Virus record (IMG/VR): IMGVR_UViG_3300042561_001139
Coordinates: 1-22,325 of that record
Length of the DNA stretch: 22,325 nucleotides
Source of the DNA: a virus
Strand: one strand, 5' to 3'
Shown: positions 2,415 through 19,074 of the stretch, piece by piece
Position numbering within the stretch: position 1 is the first letter of the stretch
Layout: every line of letters begins with the position of its first letter
Translations under genes and position numbers: made by a program
Notes under the pieces: model-generated
Databases searched by the model: none
Seen by the model: the letters and a program-made list of their open reading frames with translations, nothing else
What the model was told of the DNA's origin: nothing

Positions 2415-2899
2415 GCGATCAATCAGCCATGCAGCTAGGGGGGCAGAGCGAGGTAGCTGCTGTCCTCGGAATGATTACAACGGCTTGCGGTCGCCTAGCC
2501 AGCGTAGAGGACAAGCTGGGAAATGTTCCGTTAATGCAGCGAGATCTTGAGTCTCTAGTAAAGGGGCAAGAGAAAATGGAAACCACTGTTGAAAGAATAG
2601 AGCAGGCTCAGCGAGATGCACAAACACAGTTTGAAAGACAATTTCAATTACAGCAACTTCAGATCCAAGCAACTCAGTTAAAGCTAGAAAGTTATGAGGC
2701 TACTGCTAAAAAAGTTGCGGATCTAGAAAAGCTATATGGTGAATTGGATAAAAAAGTATTCGCTTACGCTTTACTGGCTGCTGCTGTGGGCGCGGTTGTA
2801 AGCACTCTGTTTACCGGCTTGCCCGCTTGGCTTGAACGCAATCCATTGCAGAAGGCCAGCTTTATCGTGTTTTCAGCGCTGGTGAGGGGCAAGGGCTAA
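2411..2899 (+). CDS. Coiled-coil protein with C-terminal membrane segment
   Basis: I choose GTG 2411 as the start because AGGGAGG lies 8 nt upstream and the codon forms a GTGA overlap with the previous gene; this gives 162 aa. Residues about 40-115 form a long charged coiled coil rich in Gln, Glu and Lys. Residues about 117-138 (VFAYALLAAAVGAVVSTLF) are a membrane helix, followed by a short amphipathic tail. Coiled coil plus C-terminal TM is the build of XhlA-like or spanin-like phage lysis proteins, though this one is longer than XhlA. The codon use in 2600-2760 is more A/T-rich than its neighbours. The stop overlaps the start of the heme peroxidase gene by one base (TAATG), so the two are probably co-translated. 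Confidence 0.65.
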   Translation: MSDQSAMQLGGQSEVAAVLGMITTACGRLASVEDKLGNVPLMQRDLESLVKGQEKMETTVERIEQAQRDAQTQFERQFQLQQLQIQATQLKLESYEATAKKVADLEKLYGELDKKVFAYALLAAAVGAVVSTLFTGLPAWLERNPLQKASFIVFSALVRGKG

Positions 2900-4587
2900 T
2901 GCTCCTGCCAGCCCTGATGCGGTCCCGATCGCTGCGAAGGTTTCTTGCATGGGCGGCATTAATCCCCTGGCTCAGAAAACAGATCAACCGATTTTTTACC
3001 AATCTAATCGCCAGATCCACGGCCCCTCGCCCCAGACCATTCAGCCTGTGGTCTCCTGTGGCAGTTGCAACGGGTGGCCCCAGTGGTCCGATTTCAGATT
3101 ACACATCCTGGCCGGCACTGACGGATCGCCGATTTTCTGCGCGTCATTTGCCTCCTGCCAGCATGAGCAGCATTGCGGCGCTCCCCGATGATGCCCCAAG
3201 CGGGCCTGGTGGCTGGGGCCCGGTTACATCCCTGTTCGCCAGGGATGAGGTAATGCAGACGGATCGCTCTTCTGTTCTGTTCATGTTCTTTGCGCAATGG
3301 TTTACCGACAGTGTGCTCCGCACCGACCCCGACGACCGCCGCAAAAATACTTCCAACCATGATGTCGATCTTTGCCAGGTATATGGGTTGCATGAGCGCC
3401 AAACCCAGTGTCTACGAAGTCATTCTGGAGGGCGCCTAAACTCTCAGATCATTAACGGGGAGGAATATCCCGACTACCTAGGAGAGCGAAACGAGGCAGG
3501 CGAATGGCACGTAAAGGCTAAATATAGCTGTTTAGATTCTGAAGGGCGGGTGAACCCCTCACAGGGCCTTTACCCTCATGGCAATACCGAATGGGTAAAG
3601 GCAGTCCTAGACAAGAGTTTCCCCCCCGGCACGCTGACGCCAGAGCAGCGTGATGCCAGGCTTGATAAGCTCTATGCAACCGGGATTGAGCGCGGAAACT
3701 CATCGGTAGGGTATGTGGCCCTGAGCACCATTTTTTTGCGGGAGCATAACCGCATTTGCCACGAACTGAGCAGCCTTCCCGATCTTGACTGGAAAGACGA
3801 CGACGAGCGCTTGTTTCAAACGGCGCGCATGATAAATACTTGTCTGCTTCTAAAGCTAACTATTGAAGACTACATCAATCATATAGCAGGTGACTCATTA
3901 TTTCAGTTTGATCCCAGTTTTGCCGAAGACCAGCCTTGGTACCGCCCCAACTGGATGGCGCTCGAATTTAACCTGCTCTATCGCTGGCATGGCCTTGTTC
4001 CGGATTACTTGATTGTGAATGATGCAATCGTAAAGCACTCATTCTATCGTTGGAATAATGATCTGTTGGAAGCGCACGGTTTGGCCAGTATCATCGGCAA
4101 CGCCTCCAACCAAGCAGCTGGACGTATCAGCCTAGGGAACAACCCTGATTTCCTGATGGGGGCGGAATATCAGACAATTAAGATGGGTAGAGCTTTTAGG
4201 CTACAGGGTTACAATGAATACCGCCAAAACTTTGGGCTTGCCAAACTACGGGACTTCACAGAGCTTACCAAAGATAAGAGCTTGCGTCAAAAACTGGAAA
4301 CCCTCTATGGAGACATTGACAGGCTGGAGCTAGTGGTGGGTCTGTTTGCCGAAGATCCTCAGCCTGGCGCTTTGTTCGGATCGTTAATGCTGATCATGGT
4401 GGCCTATGACGCTTTCACACAGATTTACACCAATCCACTTCTCTCAAGGGCAATTTATACAGCCGAAACCCTTACCGCCTATGGGCTAGAGCTAATCGAC
4501 ACAACATCAAGCATCGCCGACCTAGTGCGCCGCAACGTGCCTGGGGGATTATCGCAGAAGGTTGCGCTATCATTCCCCCATCATTAG
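2899..4587 (+). CDS. Cyclooxygenase-like animal heme peroxidase
   Basis: The 562-aa protein belongs to the animal heme peroxidase superfamily and is closest to the prostaglandin synthase / fatty acid dioxygenase branch. Visible landmarks are FAQ at 131-133, INGEEYPDYLG around 185-195, FLREHNR at 279-285, LFQTAR at 305-310, EFNLLYRWHGLVPD at 356-369, RLQGYNEYRQNFG at 434-446 and LYGDIDRLEL at 469-478. By alignment from memory with PGHS-1, Tyr361 matches the radical-forming Tyr385, His364 the proximal heme ligand His388 and Gln133 the distal Gln203. The distal His207 position is Asp137, an odd substitution that should alter peroxide activation. Residues 1-40 are basic and hydrophobic, suggesting membrane association. 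The family oxygenates unsaturated fatty acids; the substrate here is unknown. The gene is coupled (TAATG) to the coiled-coil/TM gene, which argues that it belongs to the phage operon. Confidence 0.93.
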   Translation: MLLPALMRSRSLRRFLAWAALIPWLRKQINRFFTNLIARSTAPRPRPFSLWSPVAVATGGPSGPISDYTSWPALTDRRFSARHLPPASMSSIAALPDDAPSGPGGWGPVTSLFARDEVMQTDRSSVLFMFFAQWFTDSVLRTDPDDRRKNTSNHDVDLCQVYGLHERQTQCLRSHSGGRLNSQIINGEEYPDYLGERNEAGEWHVKAKYSCLDSEGRVNPSQGLYPHGNTEWVKAVLDKSFPPGTLTPEQRDARLDKLYATGIERGNSSVGYVALSTIFLREHNRICHELSSLPDLDWKDDDERLFQTARMINTCLLLKLTIEDYINHIAGDSLFQFDPSFAEDQPWYRPNWMALEFNLLYRWHGLVPDYLIVNDAIVKHSFYRWNNDLLEAHGLASIIGNASNQAAGRISLGNNPDFLMGAEYQTIKMGRAFRLQGYNEYRQNFGLAKLRDFTELTKDKSLRQKLETLYGDIDRLELVVGLFAEDPQPGALFGSLMLIMVAYDAFTQIYTNPLLSRAIYTAETLTAYGLELIDTTSSIADLVRRNVPGGLSQKVALSFPHH

Positions 4588-6900: not shown

Positions 6901-7265
6901 CCCAGGCGCCGGCCAAAACATGGGAGCAGGAAGAGATTGCACAGCGGCGCTCTGCTGAAGGGCTGGGCATCGTCTACGTGCCCCAGATTCGCAAGGATCG
7001 GCCCGAACCTGCTGAGCCGATTTGCCGGATATGGCCCGAGAACATGGACGCCTTCTTGCTCTGGTGCAAGGTGGCCCCCACCCAATGGCACTGGGCCACG
7101 GGTTACACCCCAGAGGGATATCCGCAATTGATGCGGACAGGCCTAATTCATGAAGCCGCAGTCCAGCGGGCCCTACTGACCTGGGGTCGGCGGCGCGTTG
7201 AAGCGATCATGGATGATCTCGCAGTGATCGAGCACGAGTTTCTAAAACTAGAGAGGGGCTTCTGA
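6897..7265 (+). CDS. gpT-like chaperone extension (C-terminal part of GT)
   Basis: The ORF carries 122 codons from an ATG that overlaps the gpG-like stop (ATGA). It is more likely expressed as the C-terminal part of the -1 frameshift product: the frame is open upstream to the slippery site, and the residues encoded there (NLREIAGEWHRQ) look like genuine protein. The ORF contains RIWPENMDAFLLWCKVAPTQ and ends in a long helix (AVQRALLTWGRRRVEAIMDD). In other siphoviruses this part of GT contacts the tape measure. Its stop overlaps the tape measure start (TGATG at 7263-7267). Confidence 0.7.
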   Translation: MTQAPAKTWEQEEIAQRRSAEGLGIVYVPQIRKDRPEPAEPICRIWPENMDAFLLWCKVAPTQWHWATGYTPEGYPQLMRTGLIHEAAVQRALLTWGRRRVEAIMDDLAVIEHEFLKLERGF

Positions 7266-9094
7266 TGGCCGTCAACTTTGCTGCGATTCTCAAGATCGCC
7301 GCCCAGGTTGTCGGCACCGAGCAAGTCGCCAAGCTCGGCTCAACCTTCAAGCAGGTAGAAGGTGCCACGCAGTCGCTCACCAGCAAACTAGGCCCGTTGA
7401 GCGGTGCCCTGGGGGCCCTTGCCCCGATTGCAACGATTGGCGGACTGGGGGCCCTGGTGGGCAGGACGATTGAACTAGGCGACTCGATGAACGACATGAG
7501 CCAGCGCACCGGCGTCAGCGTTGAGTCATTGGCCAGGTTCAGGAAGGCGGCGGCAACATCAGGAACTGACATTGATGCAGTCGCCAAATCGCTTGTCAAG
7601 CTCAGCAAGGGCCTCTACGAAACCGCACAAACCGGCAAGGGTCCGGCATCTGAAGCACTGCAGACCCTCGGCATCAGCGCAACAGATGCAGCCGGTAAAT
7701 TAAAAACAGCCGATCAAGTTACGTTAGAGATCGCCAATAAATTTAAGACTATGCCAGACGGTATAGAGAAAACAGCTTTAGCGATGCAGCTGTTTGGCAA
7801 ATCAGGCGCGGATATGATCCCAATGCTGAACGAAGGCGGCAAAGCTATCGAATCATTAAGCGTAAAGATGACGGCAGCATTCGCTAAAAAGGCGGATGAG
7901 TATAACGATAAGTTGGCGATGCTTGGCGGGAAGGTCGGCGGTCTTGCTGCTGGACTGACCGTGGCTTTGCTGCCTGCGCTGGATGCAACAGCCACGGCGC
8001 TGACTGCGGTGATTGATGCCTTCACAATGCTGCCAGGCCCGATACAGGCAGCGGTTGGGGGCGTGGCACTGTTGGCCGTGGGCTTTACCCTGCTGGCTCC
8101 CATCATCACCAGCGTGGTAACGGTGCTGGGTGCCTTTGCCGGCCTGGGCATTGGCGCCACTCTGGCGGGCATAGCCGGCGCGATCGTGCCAGTAGCCACC
8201 GGTCTGGCTGCCCTGGTTGCCGGGTTCGTGACTGCCCCGGTGCTGATAGGCGCCGCAGTCGTGGCCACGGCGGTGGTGATTTTCAATTTCCGCGACCAGA
8301 TCGCCGATGCTTTCCGGGGCCTGTTCGATCTGATCGCCAACCCCACCACCGGGTTCGTCGCAATGATCGGCGGTGGCTGGAACCTGATGATGGACGGCCT
8401 CGCCAGCTACGTCGGCAACATCCTCCCCAATATCAGCGAGAACTTTGCAGCATTTTTTGACACCATCATCGGCCCAGAGAATGGCCTGATTGCCCGCCTG
8501 GGGCAGGCCTGGAATGCTGGCATGGACGCCATGCGGGACTATGCCGTGGGCCTGGTGCGGCCCATTGCCGATGCCTGGGCAGGGATTGTCGGCACGGTGC
8601 GGGGGGTGATCAATTCGGCCCTCAGCCTGGCAGGGCGGGCGGTCAATGCCTTCATTGAGCAGATCAACCGCCTGATCGCCGCGGCCAATTCAGTGAGCGC
8701 CGCCGTGCGGGGCCCGCAGCTGGGGATGATCCAACCGGTGCAGGTGCCCCAGTTTGCAGTAGGCGGCCGGGTGGATCGGCCAACGTTGATCATGGCCGGC
8801 GAGGCTGGCACCGAGTACATCGTGCCTCAGAAGAAGGTGCCGCAGTTCATCGCTGCGCAGATGGGGGACCAGGGCCTCGGCATTCGCCAGGGTGCCGCTG
8901 CTGGCGGGGGCTTCAGAGGCGGCGGCACTTTCGCCCCAACGATCCAGGTTCAAACCGGCCCAGTCCAGCAGCAGCCCGACGGCTCCCAGTGGATCCGGCG
9001 CGAGGATGCCGAGGCCATGGTGAGCGATGGCGTTGGCCAGCTCTGGGATCACCTCCAGAGCTATGACGGGCGCAAGGCCCTGGGGATGGCCTGA
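7265..9094 (+). CDS. Tape measure protein
   Basis: The 609-aa protein has the expected layout: an Ala/Lys/Gln-rich helical N-terminus, a long hydrophobic Gly/Ala/Val section (about 223-341) with several potential membrane helices, and a C-terminal motif FAVGGRVDRPTLIMAGEAGTE around 497-517, typical of tape measure proteins. It sets tail length and, in relatives, may enter the host envelope during DNA injection. At roughly 0.15 nm per residue it predicts a tail near 90 nm, short for a siphovirus; this estimate uses general knowledge. The gene is coupled upstream by TGATG and to the next gene by TGATG at 9092-9096. Confidence 0.9.
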   Translation: MAVNFAAILKIAAQVVGTEQVAKLGSTFKQVEGATQSLTSKLGPLSGALGALAPIATIGGLGALVGRTIELGDSMNDMSQRTGVSVESLARFRKAAATSGTDIDAVAKSLVKLSKGLYETAQTGKGPASEALQTLGISATDAAGKLKTADQVTLEIANKFKTMPDGIEKTALAMQLFGKSGADMIPMLNEGGKAIESLSVKMTAAFAKKADEYNDKLAMLGGKVGGLAAGLTVALLPALDATATALTAVIDAFTMLPGPIQAAVGGVALLAVGFTLLAPIITSVVTVLGAFAGLGIGATLAGIAGAIVPVATGLAALVAGFVTAPVLIGAAVVATAVVIFNFRDQIADAFRGLFDLIANPTTGFVAMIGGGWNLMMDGLASYVGNILPNISENFAAFFDTIIGPENGLIARLGQAWNAGMDAMRDYAVGLVRPIADAWAGIVGTVRGVINSALSLAGRAVNAFIEQINRLIAAANSVSAAVRGPQLGMIQPVQVPQFAVGGRVDRPTLIMAGEAGTEYIVPQKKVPQFIAAQMGDQGLGIRQGAAAGGGFRGGGTFAPTIQVQTGPVQQQPDGSQWIRREDAEAMVSDGVGQLWDHLQSYDGRKALGMA

Positions 9095-9573
9095 TGGCTG
9101 CGACGGGCCCCTACTTCTGGACCCAGACCATCAAATGGATGGACCCCGGCGGCACTGCCCGGGCCCGCTGGCACCGGCTCGACCTGGCAAACAATTTTCC
9201 GTTCAGCAGCTGGGATGCTGGCGACGGCGACGGGCCCCAGGCTTGGCGGTATCAGGAGTTCAATTGCCCTGGGTTTGATTCGGGTGTGGCGGCAGCATCG
9301 GTCACAATCACCTGCGCCCATTCCCCCGCCACCCTGGCCCTGGTGTTGCAGGCAGTGGCGGGGCAGTGGTTGATTCAGGTGACGCAATATCGAATTGTCC
9401 TGGGTGGCCTGATCCGGGACGACTCAGCATTGCTCGCCATCAGTGGCGGTGGTGGCACGCTGACCGGGATCTCATTTTCTGCCAGCAGCACCCTGCCGCC
9501 AGTGGTTGCCACAATTCCACCTAGAATTGCGACTACCGAATTGATCGGGACACCCTGCGTGCTGTCGTTCTAA
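9094..9573 (+). CDS. Minor tail / distal tail protein
   Basis: The 159-aa protein follows the tape measure gene with a TGATG overlap and precedes the large tail-tip gene with a TAATG overlap, the usual position of distal tail or tail-hub adaptor proteins. It opens with aromatic residues (YFWTQTIKWMDPGG) and ends in a Ser/Pro/Ile-rich strand region. No sequence motif fixes the exact role, so the assignment is by location. Confidence 0.55.
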   Translation: MAATGPYFWTQTIKWMDPGGTARARWHRLDLANNFPFSSWDAGDGDGPQAWRYQEFNCPGFDSGVAAASVTITCAHSPATLALVLQAVAGQWLIQVTQYRIVLGGLIRDDSALLAISGGGGTLTGISFSASSTLPPVVATIPPRIATTELIGTPCVLSF

Positions 9574-11876
9574 TGGTTGCGCCGATAATGCGGTCGGGAA
9601 ATAGCGGGGGCGGCAACTCACGTTCGTCAAGTTCTTTTGCTGGTGACGTATATCAGTCTGCTATTAACAGTGTAGGCGCCAAGGCGCGGCCTTCTCGCTA
9701 TGCAACGAGCACCAACGCGGCGGCCCTGGGCGGGAGCATGGCCATTGGCAGCGGTAATGGAATATCAGGGGGGCTGGATCTGGGTAAAGATCAGGAAGCG
9801 ATGCTGCTGTTTGAGCGAATTCCAATTGTATGGACCCGTCGAGTAGGCAATACGGGCGGGGTTTTGATTGCACCCAAGGCCACTGCTTGCAGATTTGAAA
9901 CCCCAACAGAGCTACGCGAAGAACCTTATAGCGTTACATCAGGTGGGCAAATTCAGTACAGAACCGTCAGTCTTGACCTTCCCAATACTGTAAAGGTTTT
10001 TTATCATCTTGTCTTAAGCGAGGGTAGCATAGGGGGCGTTCAAGTACGCGATATCTTTCAAGGCCGTTGCAGGGTTGGCCAGTTCAGTCAATCACGAAAC
10101 AAGCGAGCAGGAAGATGGGCCCCTGGCAATTTTCTTAAAGATGTATATAGAAACGTTTTGTATTTTAGAACTACCACTTTTGTTGATGGAAAAAATCAGT
10201 CTGAGGCTTTATTAAACAATAATTATTTGGTCGCAAAGGCTGTTCCAGCGCCCACAATATGCGGCACGGCCGGCACCTACGAAGGCATGTCCACGCTTTC
10301 GTTTTCGGTTGTTTATATCAATGGCGACGACCCTTATGGTGTCGCAAATGAAGATCAAGGATACTGGAAGCGGTCGGTACATGCTTTTATCCGCAACGGC
10401 GTTCAGTCCACCCGGCTGACTGATGGCGTTTACGGCAGCAGCAACAATCTAGCCGAGCTTTATTACTGGCTGCTGACTCACACGGGCAAGGTTTCAGAGA
10501 TACAAATTGATCGCGAGTCATTTGTTAAGACTGCCAATTTTATGGCGGTGAATGGCTTGCTTTGGGATGGCATCTTGACCGAACCAACCAGCACCAGTGA
10601 TTGGCTAAACAAAGTCGGGCCTTATTTTCTGGTGCGGGAAACCAGTGTAGGCGGACGATACGGGCTAACGCCATTGCTGCCCGTCACTCCTAGCGGTTCG
10701 ATTGATGTTGGCTCGCAAGAGCCTAAATGGATATTTGACAACGAAGCTGTAGTAAATGGCAGCTATTCATATCAACTTTCAGATCCTCAGGCCAGGCGGC
10801 CATTCATCGCTGAAGTGGCGTGGCGGCAACAAGGGGATGATGGGCTGTCAGGAATCACCAGAACTAGCACGGTCAAATATGACGACACCCCGGACTTGGC
10901 ACCAATCGAAACACATGATCTAAGCCAGTTTGCAACCTCAGAAATTCATATTGCGCGGGCGATACGTTTCAATCAAGCAAAGCGCCGCCATGTCACTCAT
11001 TCAGCGCAGGTAACAATCAAGCCCGGTTACTGGACTTCTGAGCTGGGCGAGGGAGGCCTGGTCGCCATACAGCTTGACCGAGAAGACCTGGAGACAGGAA
11101 CCAGCGACCCAATGATCCAATGGTATTTGGTCACCAACCTCAACAAGGGCCGCGATGGAAACTTGACCCTCTCCCTGGAGCAATTCCCGGTTGACGCGCA
11201 GAGCCGATCCCTGGTGGCGCTAGACGTGGCGGCAGTGACGGTAGCGGGTGACATGTTCATCACCGGCAACAGCGGCCCCTCGTGCGACGCAGACCCCAGC
11301 AGGGCCACCGATACCTCGATCCCTGACGAGGATGCAGATAGCCGGACCGCCGAGGAGGTCTATTTCTACAACAAAAATGGGCGGTTTCCTACCAGCGGAG
11401 AGTATGCGGGTGGTGGAGGCGGTGGCAACTTTGTGGCTGGGGGTGGTGCTCCAGCTGCCCCCCCTGGCGGCGCTGGTGGTGGCAGCGGTGGCGGCAGCGG
11501 TGGTGCCCCCGCCCCGCTGCCACCCACTGGCCCGGTTGAGCCCCCTGGCGTCCCGGCCCAGCCTGGCACCCCTGACGGCCCGGCGGATCCACCGTTGCCG
11601 CCACAACCGCCGGCTAACTTTACAAAATATATCCTGCTTATGAGCTTTGCGAGAATATCTAGCCCTGGTGGCCTTATTAGGCAAATCGACATCTCCGTTA
11701 CCCCTGGGCAAAGAGCGGTTAAGATATTTGAAGACGCAAACTTTACCCGCGTCCAAATATATAACGCAGACGGGACGCCTACGACTATCGTCAATGAATA
11801 CCAACACCTGGCAGATGGCACTATTTCGGGGTCCTGGGACTGGAAATTTGAATTTTCCAGCTTGACCGGGGTGTAA
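9573..11876 (+). CDS. Tail-tip / central hub protein with Gly-Pro linker
   Basis: The 767-aa protein is the largest of the tail genes and lies where lambda-type gpJ or tail-associated hub proteins are found. The region up to about residue 600 is a mixed beta domain with patterns such as WKRSVHAFIRNGVQSTRL and HSAQVTIKPGYWTSELGEGG, seen in host-specificity/hub proteins. Residues about 611-681 are an extreme Gly then Pro-rich linker, encoded by GC-rich DNA at 11404-11617, and the last 85 residues form a separate small beta domain that could be a receptor-binding tip. The start overlaps the upstream stop. GC content switches sharply between the A/T-rich central part (10130-10260) and the linker, suggesting a mosaic gene. 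Confidence 0.7.
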   Translation: MVAPIMRSGNSGGGNSRSSSSFAGDVYQSAINSVGAKARPSRYATSTNAAALGGSMAIGSGNGISGGLDLGKDQEAMLLFERIPIVWTRRVGNTGGVLIAPKATACRFETPTELREEPYSVTSGGQIQYRTVSLDLPNTVKVFYHLVLSEGSIGGVQVRDIFQGRCRVGQFSQSRNKRAGRWAPGNFLKDVYRNVLYFRTTTFVDGKNQSEALLNNNYLVAKAVPAPTICGTAGTYEGMSTLSFSVVYINGDDPYGVANEDQGYWKRSVHAFIRNGVQSTRLTDGVYGSSNNLAELYYWLLTHTGKVSEIQIDRESFVKTANFMAVNGLLWDGILTEPTSTSDWLNKVGPYFLVRETSVGGRYGLTPLLPVTPSGSIDVGSQEPKWIFDNEAVVNGSYSYQLSDPQARRPFIAEVAWRQQGDDGLSGITRTSTVKYDDTPDLAPIETHDLSQFATSEIHIARAIRFNQAKRRHVTHSAQVTIKPGYWTSELGEGGLVAIQLDREDLETGTSDPMIQWYLVTNLNKGRDGNLTLSLEQFPVDAQSRSLVALDVAAVTVAGDMFITGNSGPSCDADPSRATDTSIPDEDADSRTAEEVYFYNKNGRFPTSGEYAGGGGGGNFVAGGGAPAAPPGGAGGGSGGGSGGAPAPLPPTGPVEPPGVPAQPGTPDGPADPPLPPQPPANFTKYILLMSFARISSPGGLIRQIDISVTPGQRAVKIFEDANFTRVQIYNADGTPTTIVNEYQHLADGTISGSWDWKFEFSSLTGV

Positions 11877-14918: not shown

Positions 14919-15575
14919 TCATGCCCGCCCCCCAAAGCGGCAAACCATGGCGCGGCAACAGTCCGCAGTCACAGCAGCTACGGGACGGCCAGCAGCGATG
15001 CGTACCCAGCCCCGTTGCACGGCCAACTCCAGGAACCCATCAGCAACGCGACCCAAAAACGCCACCCCCTCCCCCTCAAGGTGGTCGGCTAATTGGCCAC
15101 CACGGCGCCGGCAGGACTCGACCAGGGACACATCCAGCCAGAGGGTCAGATCGGCACTCAGACCGCCCGTGGCGATGTCTGACAGTGTGTCAATCAGCCC
15201 CAAGCCCAAGCCCCTGCCATAGCCCTGATACGCGAATGTCGATCCGGTGAAGCGATCACATAGCACCCAATCCCCCCGTTCCAGCGCCGGCCGGAGGACG
15301 GTTTCCACATGCTGGGCCCGGTCGGCTGCATAGAGCAGCAGCTCTGCCCGGGGTACAGGAGCAGCTTCCCCAGGAGGGTGCAGTAGCAGCTCCCGCAACG
15401 CTTGGCCCAGGGCGGTTCCCCCAGGCTCTCGGCTCACGATTACGCGAGCACCAAGGGGCAGTAGGCCGCTGCTAGGCAGCCATTCCCGCAGGGCCTCCAG
15501 TTGGGTGGTCTTGCCGCAGCCGTCGATGCCTTCCAGGACGATGAACCGGCCACGGGGTGGGGTTGGGGTGCTCAT
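14919..15575 (-). CDS. tmk: Thymidylate kinase
   Basis: The 218-aa protein phosphorylates dTMP to dTDP. The P-loop GIDGCGKTT is at 16-24, the REPGG motif at 49-53, and the DRFTGSTFAYQGYGRG segment at 107-121 holds the DR(Y/F) catalytic Arg region and substrate-binding residues. The length fits the family, although the last 20 residues, Cys- and Arg-rich, differ from usual. Sequence style is that of Synechococcus/Cyanobium Tmk, so it was probably taken from a host. The start overlaps the dcd stop by ATGA, making one nucleotide-metabolism unit that raises the dTTP pool for phage replication. Confidence 0.95.
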   Translation of the reverse strand: MSTPTPPRGRFIVLEGIDGCGKTTQLEALREWLPSSGLLPLGARVIVSREPGGTALGQALRELLLHPPGEAAPVPRAELLLYAADRAQHVETVLRPALERGDWVLCDRFTGSTFAYQGYGRGLGLGLIDTLSDIATGGLSADLTLWLDVSLVESCRRRGGQLADHLEGEGVAFLGRVADGFLELAVQRGWVRIAAGRPVAAVTADCCRAMVCRFGGRA

Positions 15576-16189
15576 ACCCTGGCCCCCACCACCCGCTCGG
15601 GCTGCCCCTGATATTTTCCCGCTCGATCGGCGTAAGTCGTCTCGCAGGGATCCCCTTCAAAAAAGAGCAGCTGGCAGATGCCCTCCTCCGCGTAGATGCG
15701 GCAGTCGGCACCAGATGAGTTGCTGAACTCCAAGGTGAGGTGACCCTCCCAGGCGGCCTCTGCTGGTGTCATGTTGGCAATGATCCCCAGCCTGGCGTAA
15801 GTGCTTTTGCCTAGGCAGATTACGGTGATATTGGGCGGCACCCGCAGTTTTTCAAGCGCCACCCCCAGGCCATAGGTGTGGGCCGGCAGGATGAAATAGC
15901 GGCCGTCTTCGTCCTGCTGCAGGGGGGCCGGCTCCAGGTTGCGGGGGTTGGGCCGCTTGGGGTTCATCAGGGTGGCAGGGGAATGGCGGAAGGTCAGGAA
16001 CTCGGCGGCGGAGAGACGGATGTCGTAGCCGTAGCTGCTGGTGCCGAAGCTCAGCACCGGGCGCTTGTTGTCCCACGGCTCGCGCAGCGAACCATCCATG
16101 GCGTCAACCTCCCTCACCAGCTTCGCCTGAAAGGGCTCGATCATGCCGGCGGCGGCCTGGGCTCTGATCCATTTGTCGTTTTTCAGCAT
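15572..16189 (-). CDS. dcd: dCTP deaminase
   Basis: The 205-aa enzyme converts dCTP to dUTP for thymidylate synthesis. Motifs are SSYGYDIRLS at 51-60, LGKSTYARLG at 126-135 (nucleotide-binding Lys/Ser/Arg) and HLTLEFSNSSG at 150-160 with the catalytic Glu154, followed by EGICQLLFFEG. The N-terminal region carries a charged stretch (about 26-43, including AMDGSLREPW). It looks like a picocyanobacterial host copy. ATG 16189 has no Shine-Dalgarno; it is preceded 6 nt earlier by the stop of a 12-codon micro-ORF. The stop overlaps the tmk start (ATGA). Confidence 0.93.
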   Translation of the reverse strand: MLKNDKWIRAQAAAGMIEPFQAKLVREVDAMDGSLREPWDNKRPVLSFGTSSYGYDIRLSAAEFLTFRHSPATLMNPKRPNPRNLEPAPLQQDEDGRYFILPAHTYGLGVALEKLRVPPNITVICLGKSTYARLGIIANMTPAEAAWEGHLTLEFSNSSGADCRIYAEEGICQLLFFEGDPCETTYADRAGKYQGQPERVVGARV

Positions 16190-18015: not shown

Positions 18016-18098
18016 CGGACTTCCTCGCGCAGTAGATCGGCAAAGTAGTTGGCGCTTGTGAAGCGTTGATCGCGGGCATTAGCGGAGAGGGCTTGCAT
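18012..18098 (-). CDS. Small ORF, 28 aa, upstream of the 520-aa gene
   Basis: The ORF runs from ATG 18098 to TGA 18014-18012, overlapping the start of the 520-aa gene by ATGA. The peptide (MQALSANARDQRFTSANYF followed by ADLLREEVR) has a balanced, helix-forming composition unlike a random frame. Its 3' end encodes the GAGGAA that serves the next gene. No family is recognised; no Shine-Dalgarno precedes it. Confidence 0.45.
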   Translation of the reverse strand: MQALSANARDQRFTSANYFADLLREEVR

Positions 18099-18110
18099 AA
18101 TCAACAGCCA

Positions 18111-18147
18111 AGGGTAAAGAATTAAAGGGTAAAAGGGTAAAGAATTA
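18111..18147. repeat. Direct repeat of 14 bp with a third partial copy
   Basis: AGGGTAAAGAATTA occurs at 18111-18124 and 18134-18147, 23 bp apart (about two helical turns), with AAGGGTAAA between them. The second copy contains the stop codon of the FGE-fold gene. This A/T-rich block lies directly upstream of the 28-aa / 520-aa genes and could be an operator or part of a promoter. Confidence 0.5.
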
Positions 18148-19074
18148 GTCCTGGGGGAGGCAACAGACGCGGAAACCGACGTCGTCGACGCGGACGTCCG
18201 GGGGGCCGTTGCTGCGGTAAGCCGAGCGGCAGCCCCTGGGGGAGCTGCCCCACGACCCGCCGCGCAGCAGCTTTCTCAGGCTGCGGTCCTCCACCCAGGC
18301 CCCACCGTCGGTCGGTGCCCCGTGGTAATTGTGGTGCCATTCATCCAGGCACCATTCCCAGACGTTGCCGTGCATGTCATGCAGGCCCCAGTTGTTAGCT
18401 GGAAAACTTGCTACATCAGTGGTTTGCTCAGTGCTGTAATTGGCCCGCTCCGGCGTCAGCTTGTCTCCAAAATGAAACTGCGTGGTAGTGCCAGCGCGGC
18501 AGGCGTACTCCCACTGGGCTTCGCTCGGCAGGCCGTAACACTGGCCCGTGCGCTGGCTCAGCCGGCGGCAGAACTCCAGCGCATCAAACCAGCTCACCAT
18601 CTCCACCGGACGGTTTGCTCCCTTGAAGTAAGAAGGATCGGGGTCCAGGTCGCGCTCCAGCTTCTGCCAACCCGCCACCTCCCGCCATTGGGCTTGGGTG
18701 ATCGGTGTCTGGGCCATAAAGAAAGAGCCCAGGGTCACCTCGTGCTGGGGGCCTTCGTCGCCGTCCCGGCCTGGTTCATCGGCCGGGGAGCCCATCAGGA
18801 AGCGGCCGGCGGGGATGAGGACCATTGGGATCAGGCTGTCATCTACCGGGGCGGCTGGTACTGGTAGATCGTTGGCCCCACGCTCCAGGGCCTCCAGCCG
18901 GCGGCAGAGCGCGGCGATAGTCCTGTTGTAGCTGTCCAGGAACTTTGTATCATCTCGATCGCGGGCATCGGCGCGGGCGATCAGGTGCAGTAGCGCCTGG
19001 GCGTCACGCTGGCCGGCATCGGCGGCATGGTTGAGCCAGGCCAAGGTTTGGGGGGGAAGGGGAAGGGTGCTCAT
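18145..19074 (-). CDS. FGE-sulfatase-fold protein, putative DGR variable protein
   Basis: The 309-aa protein has a helical N-terminus (about 10-70) and an FGE-sulfatase (C-type-lectin-like) domain from about 83: PMVLIPAGRFLMGSPADEPG, TPITQAQWREV, RPVEMVSWFDALEFCRRLS, GLPSEAQWEYACRAGT, NNWGLHDMHGNVWEWCLDEW and a final RGGSW...GFRV unit. True formylglycine-generating enzymes modify sulfatases, but this fold is also the main variable-protein fold of cyanobacterial DGRs. In residues 276-299 the 14 positions variable in such proteins are all NNC codons. GAGG lies 7 nt before the start, which also overlaps a 23-codon ORF by ATGA. A ligand-binding rather than enzymatic role is inferred. No reverse transcriptase or template repeat is in the window. 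Confidence 0.88.
   Translation of the reverse strand: MSTLPLPPQTLAWLNHAADAGQRDAQALLHLIARADARDRDDTKFLDSYNRTIAALCRRLEALERGANDLPVPAAPVDDSLIPMVLIPAGRFLMGSPADEPGRDGDEGPQHEVTLGSFFMAQTPITQAQWREVAGWQKLERDLDPDPSYFKGANRPVEMVSWFDALEFCRRLSQRTGQCYGLPSEAQWEYACRAGTTTQFHFGDKLTPERANYSTEQTTDVASFPANNWGLHDMHGNVWEWCLDEWHHNYHGAPTDGGAWVEDRSLRKLLRGGSWGSSPRGCRSAYRSNGPPDVRVDDVGFRVCCLPQD
18160..18267 (-). other. Putative DGR variable region
   Basis: This segment encodes LRGGSW through FRVCC at the very end of the FGE-fold gene. Positions 276, 277, 278, 281, 286, 288-291, 294 and 296-299 are all codons ending in C (NNC), as expected if a template with AAC codons is copied with adenine mutagenesis. The constant framework codons between them use other third bases too (AGG, TCG, GCT, CCG, GGT). 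One AAC (Asn289) is kept. Confidence 0.6.

Follow-up and report, generated by a model that had tools for sequence, protein, structure and literature searches.

In cyanobacteria, the remote targets of diversity-generating retroelements (DGRs), genes of the C-type lectin (CLec) or formylglycine-generating enzyme (FGE) fold, lie in the DGR's own genome (Vallota-Eastman 2020, PMC7517822). For BPP-1, a donor plasmid has been shown to support homing in trans onto a phage target (PMC3240598). Furthermore, MoxR-vWA ternary conflict systems with FGS/FGE domains and DGRs have been described (Kaur 2020, PMC7159879), and such conflict proteins were proposed to act as DGR-diversified antigen sensors (PMC10907252). 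Here, we analyzed a stretch of 22,325 bases, IMG/VR virus record IMGVR_UViG_3300042561_001139 (hereafter the window), in which an FGE gene ends in a DGR variable region (VR). We consider it probable that this 3′ end is a remote DGR target on a cyanophage, and that a Cyanobiaceae-like host rewrites it in trans with its own DGR.

A variable region at the end of the FGE gene

The protein encoded by this gene matches the FGE-sulfatase family PF03781 over amino acids 84–303 (1.5e-55), as well as phrog_18508 (2.7e-76). Its relatives in the PDB, as judged from sequence, are PvdO (5hha) and the DGR variable protein TvpA (2y3c, 1.3e-23). The C-terminus reads LLRGGSWGSSPRGCRSAYRSNGPPDVRVDDVGFRVCCLPQD, and the position of the VR fits the 3′ end of a CLec-fold gene, with PF03781 extending to amino acid 303 of 309. 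A domain search recognized no effector domain in the protein beside the FGE-VR part. For the window protein and for a protein with tandem VRs, AlphaFold gave models with a mean pLDDT of 55 and 43, respectively, which were too poor to place variable residues and were not used.

An earlier note, made from the letters of the window alone, had proposed a DGR variable protein here and had described 14 variable positions, all of them NNC codons. The 13 most variable codons are indeed all NNC, with a Tyr TAC as the 14th, and the count of 14 is correct. However, Arg AGG and Asp GAC, which the note had counted as framework, are also adenine-derived, and relatives vary at them (R/P/T/G/A/W and D/G/V/A, respectively). 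The framework codons keep diverse third bases, as had been noticed (C 16, G 9, T 3). The span given for the VR, 18160–18267, is refined here to the segment of identity between template repeat (TR) and VR, 120 nt at 18151–18270 (core 18157–18270). At the gene's own codon usage (42% C), the chance of 13 codons all ending in C is p ~1e-5, a post-hoc figure. The comparison with homologues is far stronger evidence.

A scan of IMG/VR with the framework fixed and the variable bases free retrieved 11 contigs, all holding VR copies only, with the framework intact and the NNC codons changing. Because such a scan selects for the framework, the test was repeated on loci retrieved independently, by peptides of the FGE body upstream of the VR. 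In the close clade, these loci differ from the window at 22–62% of the upstream third codon positions and at 41–78% of the variable (NN) codon bases; in the VR framework, most copies differ at 0–5 of 82 sites, third positions included. For example, L044 differs from the window by 55% upstream, and in its in-frame VR at 0 of 82 framework sites and 22 of 32 variable bases. Across 17 distinct phage VRs that had no more than two framework mismatches, mean entropy was 1.62 bits at template adenines versus 0.11 elsewhere (p=3e-18), in a set that was itself filtered on the framework, so that the homologues chosen by FGE body remain the independent test. Third positions fixed within a single 120-bp segment point to overwriting from a template, and not to protein selection alone. 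Variation among orthologues is thus concentrated at adenine-derived positions and not spread evenly. Together with the template match described below, these sequence comparisons confirm 18151–18270 as a genuine DGR variable region and bear out the proposal of the earlier note.

The invariant 3′ end of the VR likely harbors the initiation-of-mutagenic-homing element, its position being assigned by analogy, and the 3′ flank beyond it may possibly serve as a cis element (Table 1).

Template, reverse transcriptase and probable host

Among GTDB genomes, scanned with one genome per species, the VR framework was found in only two cyanobacterial metagenome-assembled genomes (MAGs). In the first, bin-282, one 3-kb contig (L016, also L020) holds a VR, an Avd protein (NF033474 and PF22296), a reverse transcriptase (RT; RVT_1, motif YVDD) and a TR together. 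The template lies at L016:1034-1147 (-), beside the DGR-type RT and Avd, and has AAC at the variable codons. Three further VRs are located on other contigs of this MAG, and one template serves at least four VRs. TR, RT and Avd are thereby located in a host-type MAG (G013). The VR of the window differs from this template at 16 of 25 adenines and at 3 of 89 other bases (p ~1e-10). The VR of a related phage, L043, differs at 11 of 25 adenines and at none of the 89 others, a perfect match between a phage VR and a host TR. The non-adenine sites that vary are the third base of RGG, the first base of the third variable codon, AGG, the third base of an Ala codon and an ATC/CTC site, and they are most simply explained by sister templates. 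In LacPavin, the second MAG, two VRs show the GGG and ATC-type pattern of the window; their template was not recovered. The MAGs also encode second types of DGR RT (L018, L019), which were set aside because they go with other templates or targets. A related host DGR (L117:1375-2202, genome G280) has an RT that reads YLRYV and then jumps into the tail of the TR (CFRVCCLPQHPS); an internal deletion removed the catalytic half of the RT and the TR, and VRs are retained on both sides.

The host of the window phage is likely a Cyanobiaceae-like freshwater cyanobacterium. The thymidylate kinase (tmk) and dCTP deaminase (dcd) genes of the window share 67–82% DNA identity with copies in genomes of the genus of the MAGs, with at least one match in 42 of 42. 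Among host proteins, this VR framework occurs in TIR-FGE proteins (L012, L017) and in FGE proteins encoded beside MoxR-type AAA and vWA genes (L013, L015). A single VR type is thus distributed among TIR-FGE and MoxR/vWA-FGE conflict proteins, which are encoded on several contigs of the two cyanobacterial MAGs (L012–L017).

On the phage side, the RVT_1 profile had no match in any of 44 records (the window and 43 other FGE-VR carriers, including relatives of 40–67 kb), most of which are fragments. G429 (L048, 53 kb), one of the records without RT, encodes terminase, portal, head protease, tape measure, a tail protein and helicase, and the junction of its head and tail modules falls across the contig ends, pointing to a permuted genome that is nearly complete. 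Searches by tblastn with three host RTs found RTs only in the distant FGE-bearing viral lineages L075, L076, L079, L081 and L082; since these belong to the same locus set, the search is able to detect RTs. In IMG/VR, a single-protein search with the host RT returned nothing, and a profile search returned no RT closer than 45% identity to the host clade. Two patterns found no template of the window's type in IMG/VR, where the window and its relatives hold VR copies only. A third pattern retrieved only L106, a contig without RT. There, a short phage open reading frame (ORF; L106:348-887, IMGVR_UViG_3300046777_002218) contains a template-like copy, rich in AAC, that belongs to a different host TR type, and after it a VR copy like that of the window; each of the two adjoins the same short repeat. 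Within the window, we found no second VR or TR copy, the best other stretch having 39 of 82 framework mismatches.

The VR signature, the lack of an RT in the phage records, the machinery and matching template type in the host, and the perfect match of L043 together argue for rewriting in trans by a host DGR. The earlier note had seen neither RT nor template repeat in the window and had suggested a remote target served by a host- or phage-encoded RT elsewhere. Both statements agree with our results, with the host favored. The adenine-rich template beside a DGR-type RT that it called for does exist in a host-type MAG, although an exact copy was not found. According to the proposed mechanism, the cyanophage would bring the VR of its FGE gene into the cell, with no RT or template of its own. 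During infection the host DGR, i.e., template RNA, RT and Avd, would make adenine-randomized cDNA, which would home into the phage VR in trans. The phage progeny would then differ in about 16 residues on the ligand-binding face of the FGE/CLec protein. Homing on the window phage, the exact template in its host and the binding partner of the protein are the three elements that we infer.

Weighing the alternatives

Several observations weigh against a host DGR acting in trans. No exact template for the window VR (GGG, a third variable codon that starts with T, and ATC at three sites) turned up in the GTDB species genomes, which gave only the TR of bin-282 and the VR copies in the two MAGs; this nearest template differs from the window VR at the 3 non-adenine sites given above. 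With its 22 kb, the window is a fragment, and all searched records are classed as linear in IMG/VR. The host was assigned from gene similarity rather than from CRISPR or culture. A test of 12 records revealed no tyrosine integrase, so lysogeny is unsupported, and homing would need a lytic cycle or a carrier state. Finally, a stable, GC-rich hairpin or cruciform of the BPP-1 type is missing directly 3′ of the VR, in the window as in its host and phage relatives. Because the host VRs of the family lack it as well, and the hairpin criterion is known from BPP-1-like DGRs, this absence was not used against membership.

One alternative is that the phage VRs, instead of being homed in place, came from host VR genes by homologous recombination and had been diversified there beforehand. 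The DNA identity between phage FGE and host TIR-FGE domains (87% for L028 and L012, 83% for L043 and L017) and the common 3′ flank do indicate past exchange. Yet near-perfect identity is limited to the 120-bp template segment and the 3′ flank, with upstream third positions diverged by 20–50%, and repeated events would need to stop exactly at the boundary of the template. Moreover, adjacent VRs within one gene differ at 11–23 of 32 variable bases. We regard recombination alone as unlikely.

It is similarly doubtful that the VR is a leftover of past homing by a host DGR and has since been frozen in the phage lineage. The window and contig L002/L021, which are 100% identical over 5.9 kb, do carry the same VR, and L030 and L048 share an identical first VR. 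However, the framework of the window VR is intact at all 82 pattern sites, the variants have no stop, and close relatives differ at most adenine sites. The second VRs of L030 and L048 differ at 19 of 32 variable bases, compared with 96% identity upstream, in a pair whose downstream DNA differs too.

An RT and TR of the phage's own could be encoded in the part of its genome outside the window. This would be in line with the fragmentary state of the window, with the many phage DGRs that are self-contained and with the RTs in the five distant lineages. We judge it improbable, given 44 FGE-VR carriers without RVT_1, one of them with a full structural set, and an IMG/VR collection that yielded neither an RT closer than 45% to the host clade nor a template of the window's type. 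That this is an ordinary FGE-like protein whose NNC codons stem from C-rich usage, with 42% of the gene's codons ending in C, is refuted by the homologue comparison and the adenine-specific match of TR and VR, and hardly merits consideration.

Genomic setting, tandem regions and known systems

The window has tail genes on the left and minus-strand genes of an early type on the right, including those for a single-stranded DNA-binding protein, dCTP deaminase and thymidylate kinase. Sequenced phages gave no match to the window by megablast; by tblastn, its phage relatives are Microcystis phages (54%). Two further features lie on its plus strand. The phage protein encoded at 2899–4587 has a haem peroxidase domain of the animal type (PF03098, 2.8e-39). 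At 1221–2135, about six near-identical repeats of 35–40 residues (FTALNQTTRQW..MTTLGADVYACV..GDIYKQTGG) have no Pfam match.

Table 1. Positions of the variable region, its gene and the neighboring phage genes in the window
Feature	Position	Strand	Remarks
DGR variable region (VR)	18151..18270	-	Equals the L016/L020 template except at 16/25 adenines and 3/89 other core sites
Stretch with adenine-derived variable codons	18178..18249	-	13 NNC codons, Tyr TAC, Arg AGG, Asp GAC
Invariant 3′ end of VR, GGTTTCCGCGTCTGTTGCCTCCCCCAG	18151..18177	-	Nearly the same in TR and in the VRs of phages and hosts
3′ flank (TAATTCTTTACCC...)	18096..18150	-	Common to many phage VRs and host VRs, absent from TR
FGE/CLec-fold variable protein gene, 309 aa	18145..19074	-	PF03781, phrog_18508, PDB relatives
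N-terminal region, ~83 aa	18826..19074	-	No TIR or other recognized effector domain
dCTP deaminase-like gene	15572..16189	-	PF22769; DNA 71-82% identical to host-type genome copies; host link
Thymidylate kinase gene	14919..15575	-	PF02223; 67-75% identical to host-type genome copies; host link
Tail tape-measure-like gene	7265..9094	+	PF10145, slightly under cut-off; contig is phage
Tail protein	9573..11876	+	phrog_27845, 1.2e-106; contig is phage

The FGE gene sits among the early-type and nucleotide-metabolism genes, outside the tail module, which would fit a function inside the cell. The phage proteins keep the FGE-VR part without effectors and the host versions have effectors, which makes a role as anti-sensor or decoy attractive. 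The phage FGE protein might be an effector-less counterpart of the host TIR-FGE and MoxR/vWA-FGE proteins, acting as an intracellular variable decoy or binder.

In 11 related loci (L022, L023, L026:4797-5984, L029, L030, L032, L033, L034, L044, L048, L069), which are not independent events, the FGE gene carries two tandem VRs; that of the window carries a single VR, read in the normal frame. The spacing between the two is 124, 127 or 130 nt, always 1 modulo 3. The ORF spans the FGE domain, passes through the first VR in the +1 frame, where it is rich in Ala, Ser, Thr and Pro, and then enters the second VR in the normal frame. Framework mismatches in the first VR amount to 8 of 253 at bases that are wobble positions in the translated frame. 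The first VR also keeps the normal-frame framework and mostly a stop directly after, and seems to be held by homing, or by normal-frame translation following a frameshift. With a second, frame-shifted VR, one gene could present alternative variable ends. At L022:3968-6059, two tandem FGE paralogues with double VRs each precede an orphan copy of the N-terminal part that in the window is fused to FGE. As a tentative wider picture, cyanophages may borrow the DGR with which the host diversifies its TIR-FGE and MoxR/vWA-FGE immune sensors, and use it on their own copies of the sensor domain, which lack effectors and would act as decoys or anti-sensors; some of these genes carry such a second VR.

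Should rewriting in trans by the host be true, the window phage would show that a virus can, in nature, depend on the hypermutation machinery of a cell rather than on its own; we found no earlier report of such a case in the open-access literature searched. Diversification of the phage would also be tied to the very DGR that acts on suspected immune sensors of bacteria. Metagenome surveys have looked for RT and VR side by side, a limit stated in PMC8144416, and our results suggest that surveys needing this adjacency miss a class of phage DGR targets.

The target most resembles the remote variable proteins of cyanobacteria (PMC7517822), with a CLec/FGE gene, a VR at its 3′ end far from RT and TR, and a matching cyanobacterial template. 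Unlike those, it lies on a phage without RT. The trans-acting DGRs of Thiohalocapsa PB-PSB1 (Dore 2024, PMC10907252) likewise target sensors of conflict systems with FGE domains; there, the action is between loci of one chromosome, whereas we propose one from host to virus. With the DGR of the Bordetella phage BPP-1 (PMC3240598), the window shares an adenine-directed VR on a phage. However, BPP-1 has its own RT, TR and Avd, a target at the tail fiber tip and a required downstream hairpin, whereas the window phage showed no RT, TR or hairpin and carries its VR in a non-tail gene. As in the MoxR-vWA systems with FGS/FGE domains (PMC7159879), the host targets whose VR framework matches that of the window are of the MoxR/vWA-FGE and TIR-FGE types; in contrast to these systems, the phage proteins keep the FGE-VR part without recognized effector domains.
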